Source: Caldifarciminota bacterium
Lineage (GTDB): Bacteria; Hydrothermota; UBA3073; JACQXS01; JAGMCI01
Direction of reading: 5' to 3'
Assembly: GCA_023129325.1 (NCBI GenBank)
Contig: JAGMCI010000017.1
Coordinates: forward strand, 77,252-141,251
DNA length: 64,000 nucleotides
Within the stretch, counting starts at the first letter, position 1. The number at the start of each line of letters is the position of its first letter. The notes beneath the pieces were generated by a model, which ran no database searches, was not told the origin of the DNA, and worked only from the letters and a program-made list of their open reading frames with translations. Both the position numbers and the translations under genes were made by a program. Of this stretch, positions 61,044 through 62,462 are shown in pieces.

Positions 61044-62462
61044 ATGACAAATTACAAAGGCAAGAGGGTTTCAGTAATTGGTTTTGGGAGAAGTGGAAAG
61101 GCTTGTGTAAAGTTATTGCTTGACAGAGGAGCTAAAGTCTTTGTCAGTGAGATAAAAGAAAGGAATCAAGGAATCGAGGGTTCAAGGGTTCAAGAGGTTG
61201 TTAGATTTGAGGAACTGGGGGTTGAATTTGAGTTTGGGAAGCACAGTTCTAAGATACTTAATTCAGGTTTAATAATAGTATCACCTGGGGTGTCACTTGA
61301 TTTACCTATTATTAAAGAGGCGAGACGCAGGGGCATTCCTGTGCTCAGCGAGCTTGAGTTTGCGACACAATTTATTCCCGCACTTATGCATAAGTGCGGG
61401 GTTGGGATAACAGGGACTAATGGGAAAACCACTACCGCCTTTCTTATCCAGGAAGTGTTAAAATCTGCTAATAAAGAGTGTATCGTGTGTGGCAATATGG
61501 GGGTTCCTGTATCTTCAATAGTTAATTTGTTAGTTGATAAATCAGGAAACTCAACAATACCTATAATTGAGGTTAGTACATTTCAACTTGAGGCTATAGA
61601 TTCTTTTTGTCCTCATATAGGTATACTCTTAAATATCACTCCAGACCATCTTGACAGACATAAAAACTTTAAAGAATACAGAGATTTAAAATTCAAACTT
61701 TTTTCAAATCAAAGAGCTAATGATTTCGCTATCCTCAATTTCGATGATATAGAGATAAGGAAGTATCTATTTCATGAGGAACAAGATAAGTTAAAAGCGC
61801 AAAAGATTTTCTTTTCCACGCAGGCTGGAAGCCTATGCCACCAGAATGTATATATAAAGGATAAAGACATCTTCTGGGAGGGAGAGAAATTATTTAGCTT
61901 AAATAATTTAAATCTAAAATGGGAATGTTGGCTTGAGGATGGGCTTGCAGCTATTGCAGTAGCAAAGATATTGGGCATACCGAATGAGACTATTCTGAAG
62001 GGGTTTCGCAATTTCAAAGGAGTACCGCATCGACTTGAAGACATTGGTGTAATAAATGGAGTTAGATTTATAAATAATTCTATGTGCACGAATCCTGATT
62101 CATTTAAAAGGACACTATTAAGTTTCAAAAGGCGTGTAATACTTATAACAGGTGGCAAAGAGAAAGGAGTAGAGATAACTTCAATTGTCAATACTATAAA
62201 AAGGAAAGCAAAGCATACAATACTAATCGGCGAAACAAGTGAAACATTAGCCAAAGCACTGAAAGAGAACTATACAAAAGCATTCCCGTCTGCCCGTCGG
62301 GCAGGGAGCATGGATGAGGCAGTAAAGATTGCGTTTAAGTATGCAACCAAAGGAGATACAATCCTTTTATCACCAGGATTTGCTTCATTTGATTGGTTTC
62401 AGGATTTCAAGGATAGAGGAGAAAAATTTAAAAAAGCGATTGAGAAACTAAAAAAGTATTAA
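61044..62462 (+). CDS. murD: UDP-N-acetylmuramoylalanine--D-glutamate ligase
   Basis: VSVIGFGRSGKACVKLLLDRGAKV, GITGTNGKTTTAFLIQEVL, NITPDHLDRHKNFKEY, LSPGFASFDWFQDFKDRGEKF. Confidence 0.96.
   Translation: MTNYKGKRVSVIGFGRSGKACVKLLLDRGAKVFVSEIKERNQGIEGSRVQEVVRFEELGVEFEFGKHSSKILNSGLIIVSPGVSLDLPIIKEARRRGIPVLSELEFATQFIPALMHKCGVGITGTNGKTTTAFLIQEVLKSANKECIVCGNMGVPVSSIVNLLVDKSGNSTIPIIEVSTFQLEAIDSFCPHIGILLNITPDHLDRHKNFKEYRDLKFKLFSNQRANDFAILNFDDIEIRKYLFHEEQDKLKAQKIFFSTQAGSLCHQNVYIKDKDIFWEGEKLFSLNNLNLKWECWLEDGLAAIAVAKILGIPNETILKGFRNFKGVPHRLEDIGVINGVRFINNSMCTNPDSFKRTLLSFKRRVILITGGKEKGVEITSIVNTIKRKAKHTILIGETSETLAKALKENYTKAFPSARRAGSMDEAVKIAFKYATKGDTILLSPGFASFDWFQDFKDRGEKFKKAIEKLKKY
61377..61400. repeat. 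CCCGCACTTATGCATAAGTGCGGG perfect palindrome in frame in murD
   Basis: 24-nt perfect palindrome encoding PALMHKCG immediately before the P-loop GITGTNGKTT. Confidence 0.9.
61816..61842. repeat. GCAGGCTGGAAGCCTATGC palindromic element in frame in murD
   Basis: ccacgcaggctggaagcctatgccacc encodes TQAGSLCHQ. Confidence 0.7.
62287..62306. repeat. CTGCCCGTCGGGCAG palindrome in frame in murD
   Basis: cgtctgcccgtcgggcaggg encodes SARRAG. Confidence 0.75.

Follow-up and report, generated by a model that had tools for sequence, protein, structure and literature searches.

A dispersed 24-nt palindrome in murD, other genes and intergenic DNA of an uncultured, putative WOR-3-group bacterium, probably a REP/RPE-like element

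A perfect 24-nt palindrome, CCCGCACTTATGCATAAGTGCGGG (here P24), lies within murD in the 64,000-nt stretch of DNA that we analysed (the window). P24 is very probably a short, dispersed, non-autonomous palindromic element, similar to REPs and RPEs, that sits both within genes and between them and has spread by a transposition-like process. It is present in many dispersed copies in the host genome, among them in-frame genic copies that relatives lack, and its distribution across genomes is patchy. The preliminary description dealt with the palindrome in murD. P24 is not special to that gene: six or more further protein genes carry it, as does the gene for RNase P RNA, and it is the dispersed element that should be studied as the unit and not the octapeptide of MurD.

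The palindrome in murD

The features of murD discussed below are as follows.
61044..62462, + strand: murD, 472 aa, with an intact frame and the invariant Mur ligase residues
61377..61400, no strand assigned: P24 palindrome, encoding PALMHKCG (MurD residues 112-119)
61375..61402, no strand assigned: P24 with its two-base flanks in the murD copy (left TT, right GT)
61816..61842, - strand: degenerate GGTGG-CACAGGCTTCCAGCCTGTG REP copy within a variable murD loop
62287..62306, no strand assigned: CTGCCCG/CGGGCAG palindrome in murD, at the place of a 7-residue gap in close relatives

The position given in the preliminary description is exact: the palindrome is in frame in the murD ORF, and PALMHKCG is placed just ahead of the P-loop strand. 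The two further palindromes that it had reported in murD are also present, one as a degenerate REP copy and the other as a hairpin. With an arm of 12 bp and no loop, P24 has the longest arms among the inverted repeats of arm 8 or more in the window, and folding computations indicated that the single strand, as RNA or DNA, forms a hairpin far stabler than shuffled sequence.

PALMHKCG was present in none of the 29 aligned MurD homologues, so that no relative was found to encode these residues without the palindrome. The claim that the octapeptide had been inserted stands for an in-frame palindromic insert, but not for its full length. The closest homologues read F-V/I-(K/E)NPI-IGITGTNG, whereas murD here encodes F-I-PALMHKCG-VGITGTNG; PALMHKCG thus replaces ENPI or KNPI, and the protein is longer by 4 aa net (12 nt), not by 8.

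The position was also described as risky for an essential enzyme, which our results do not bear out. The site is the linker joining the N-terminal and central domains, whose length varies among some homologues (one, L118, has about 20 extra residues there), and the structural model is confident and MurD-like. The AlphaFold prediction (24-sequence alignment) had a mean pLDDT of 89.4 and a pTM of 0.89, with an average pLDDT of 78 over residues 111-120; residues 112-116 are predicted to form a short helix ahead of the P-loop strand (120-123). Foldseek matches of the model were MurD structures; E. coli MurD gave TM-scores as high as about 0.81 to 0.86. The copy within MurD is presumably neutral.

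Copies in the host genome and among relatives

The host genome is a draft of 2.02 Mb in 57 contigs (89% complete), and the genome-wide numbers given here come from pattern searches and 29 individually read stretches. The P24 24-mer matched 30 sites at three or fewer mismatches, 16 of them exactly, against 0 for the reversed-sequence control, which excludes a chance origin. A looser pattern, CCCGCAC-N4-30-GTGCGGG, returned 80 copies (control 0), with ATAA/TTAT as a second common core.

Eight of the 30 copies fall within ORFs that have an upstream ATG and a length of 150 aa or more. The one at L087 probably precedes the true start, which leaves seven protein-gene copies: in murD, a macro-domain gene, a B12-binding/radical-SAM gene, mfd, cmk, pcm and a gene for a SAM hydroxide adenosyltransferase (SAM_HAT). 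One copy lies within the RNase P RNA gene (rnpB), and the remaining 22 of the 30 appear intergenic as judged by ORF reading alone. Large ORFs occupy about 92% of the window, so P24 is under-represented in genes, a pattern that would follow if insertions into genes mostly disappear. On either strand, P24 can be read through in two of its three frames (PALMHKCG and PHLCISAG), the third being closed by a TAA, so survival inside genes is eased; all seven protein-gene copies read in one of the two open frames.

Absence from relatives was compared for murD, cmk, pcm and SAM_HAT, while the copies in mfd and in the macro-domain and radical-SAM genes were placed by ORF and Pfam only. Net gains relative to relatives vary by gene (6 aa in cmk, 7 aa in pcm, 12 aa in SAM_HAT) and are below 24 nt in murD, cmk and pcm. 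Either target bases were lost during or after the insertion of P24, or the ancestral loops were shorter. For murD the nearest relative is about 60% identical and offers no exact empty site. As read from alignments, these comparisons show a gain of P24 in the host lineage, with the closest relatives about 60-80% identical and the insertion boundaries in protein genes approximate. In RNase P RNA, the host (G000) and a genome of the same family (G001) bear P24 at different positions, and G001 is without it at the host position. The SAM_HAT copy (L083) is nested within a copy of a GTAG-GCACGATTTCAAATCGTGC hairpin, which also flanks a Y1_Tnp gene in the host genome; from this nesting, that P24 reads as a later arrival within a known repeat.

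In the flanks of the 30 copies, an R-Y dinucleotide is all that stays constant: 27 copies have purine-pyrimidine on both sides, against a background of 4.7%; the murD copy is among three with TT on the left. These dinucleotides are either the ends of the element or a target preference. Identical flanking RY pairs were seen at 8 copies, compared with 6.6 expected, so that target-site duplication, a feature of young MITE copies, was not found in the two-base flanks of the 30 copies. Substitutions relative to the P24 consensus are all transitions, and a compensatory pair, T8/A17 to C8/G17, recurs.

The exact P24 family (Y and R beside the stem) was found in 11 of 147 genomes of the phylum, at 1 to 21 copies each. 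Named genomes with P24 include WOR-3, Stahlbacteria, TA06, Zixibacteria, one Bacteroidetes and two CPR assemblies; where an unrelated MAG has just one copy, this could be a binning error. Judged by this sharing, the host itself probably belongs to the WOR-3 group. P24 was not found in viral contigs, phages or plasmids, in searches made partly with a 30-nt query of low sensitivity.

In cmk of G002 (L165/L167), a different insertion of roughly 25 residues occupies the same loop as the host P24. The G001 RNase P RNA (L059:1410-1786) has CCCGCACATAATTTATGTACGGG at the P3 position, P24 elsewhere and GCACATTAATTTATGTGC near the 3' end, all palindromic segments.

Possible origins and known systems

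We propose that P24, which can fold into a hairpin when its DNA or RNA is single-stranded, has multiplied to about 30 copies in the host genome, probably by a transposition-like process. The mobiliser may be a single-strand Y1/HuH transposase working on hairpins, and genic copies would persist where they leave the frame intact and fall in a loop that tolerates them (or in RNase P RNA).

One form of this explanation is that P24 is a classical RAYT-type REP whose transposase gene was lost or is missing from the incomplete assembly. REP families are GTAG- and CGTC-tagged palindromes of 20-40 bp, mostly intergenic with some in genes, and sometimes lie within other palindromes, with several families per genome (PMC3733652). 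P24 resembles them as a short palindrome with many highly similar dispersed copies, and as in REPtron/TnpA_REP (RAYT) systems (PMC2817692, PMC8266576) the host has four Y1_Tnp (RAYT-like) genes (L125, L126, L127, L128), each with its own hairpins beside it (GCACGATTT/GCACAAATT; GCCGAGG; CGAGGGC; TGCAAAATC/TGCAACAAC). The murD palindrome at 61816-61842 is likewise a member of a REP family: repeats of this family flank Y1_Tnp genes in the related genomes G014 and G015, and the host genome contains four further matches. However, the P24 stem has no adjacent GTAG or CGTC tag, and P24 adjoined none of the 34 Y1_Tnp loci surveyed in nine genomes, P24-rich ones included, so that no cognate transposase was found in a survey where some matches came without a locus and the host genome is 89% complete. 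A classical REP of this type is thus possible but doubtful.

RPEs and the Wolbachia protein-coding palindromes (Ogata, Claverie) are described as in-frame insertions in the ORFs of proteins that are unrelated to one another and probably functional (PMC3733652, PMC10969869). P24 shares with RPEs its in-frame position in several unrelated ORFs, and is absent from the orthologues of murD, cmk, pcm and SAM_HAT. An RPE measures about 150 bp and has a conserved peptide (PMC10969869), whereas the P24 unit is 24-28 nt, a comparison made with RPE families by description. Unlike RPEs, P24 also belongs to uncultured WOR-3-group bacteria, occurs in rnpB and stands alongside several other palindrome families. 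Since the tag, the RAYT linkage and the RPE size all fail, we file P24 as a variant and as a member of neither REP nor RPE.

More tentatively still, P24 and its CCCGCAC...GTGCGGG relatives may be a class of tagless hairpins that is shared by several uncultured phyla, depends for its movement on some transposase preferring R-Y / R-Y sites, and enters genes, the RNase P RNA and other palindromes.

It is improbable that P24 is instead a DNA site maintained by selection, such as an operator or a site for a nucleoid protein, that now and then arises in genes or is copied into them. Perfect symmetry and compensatory changes would be consistent with such a site, and six copies of the C8/G17 type occupy a fixed position upstream of a promoter-like TTTTTCTTGACA stretch before different genes; because this subset precedes a recurrent promoter-like stretch, the reading retains some weight. 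Nonetheless, that stretch is also found with other hairpins, or with none, in the place of P24. Furthermore, operators would not be expected within the seven unrelated protein genes, or within rnpB, that carry copies, and the distribution is patchy even among close relatives. An artefact, with P24 marking the junctions of misjoined contigs, is extremely unlikely: a draft of 57 contigs and the single copies in unrelated MAGs would allow for it, but in murD, cmk, pcm and SAM_HAT the conserved protein sequence runs on in frame to either side of P24 and stays collinear with homologues, and P24 is also present in assemblies made independently.

Genic in-frame palindromes, and palindromes nested in palindromes, have already been described (PMC3733652, PMC10969869); we found no paper on palindromic elements of WOR-3 in a literature search that omitted most subscription journals. 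If our preferred explanation of P24 as a REP/RPE-like dispersed element is true, gene-invading in-frame palindromes, best known from Rickettsia and Wolbachia, extend to uncultured WOR-3-group bacteria, where several palindrome families in one genome reach into essential cell-wall genes and the RNase P ribozyme. The insertions would then show, as natural maps, where MurD, Cmk, Pcm and Mfd tolerate added residues, and would define a search for the enzyme that mobilises a tagless hairpin.

Other palindromes in the genome

The window held 23 GC-rich hairpins, compared with 3-13 in shuffles, and a search of it against Rfam gave no matches. From 55000 to 63700, GC-rich palindromes lie within consecutive cell-wall/division ORFs read as ftsI, murF, mraY, murD and ftsW (names Pfam-checked for murD and ftsW, and assigned by reading for ftsI, murF and mraY). 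The AAGTGCGGG arm presumably resembles the Haemophilus uptake sequence.

Several palindromes are nested, with TCCGCCTNAGGCGGA or TCCGTCAGCTAACGGA inside CCGTC/GACGG or CCCGCACATAA/ATGTGCGGG. The sites are in the window (48352-48366 and 55343-55357), at L083:2056, and in the host genome (G000) at C9:43961, C13:49519 and C25:8658. A preference of P24 for palindromic targets was considered but is not proposed here: nested cases exist, yet most P24 sites are outside palindromes.

A composite repeat of the form CTAAGCATAAGC-(interchangeable hairpin)-GCATTAGCAAGATTTTTCTTGACA precedes promoter-like sequence in the host genome (L187-L204; e.g., L193 around 1406-1530), where its right end has 18 near-matches. 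In related copies (L090, L092) the repeat lies upstream of ORFs resembling gltX and mutL.
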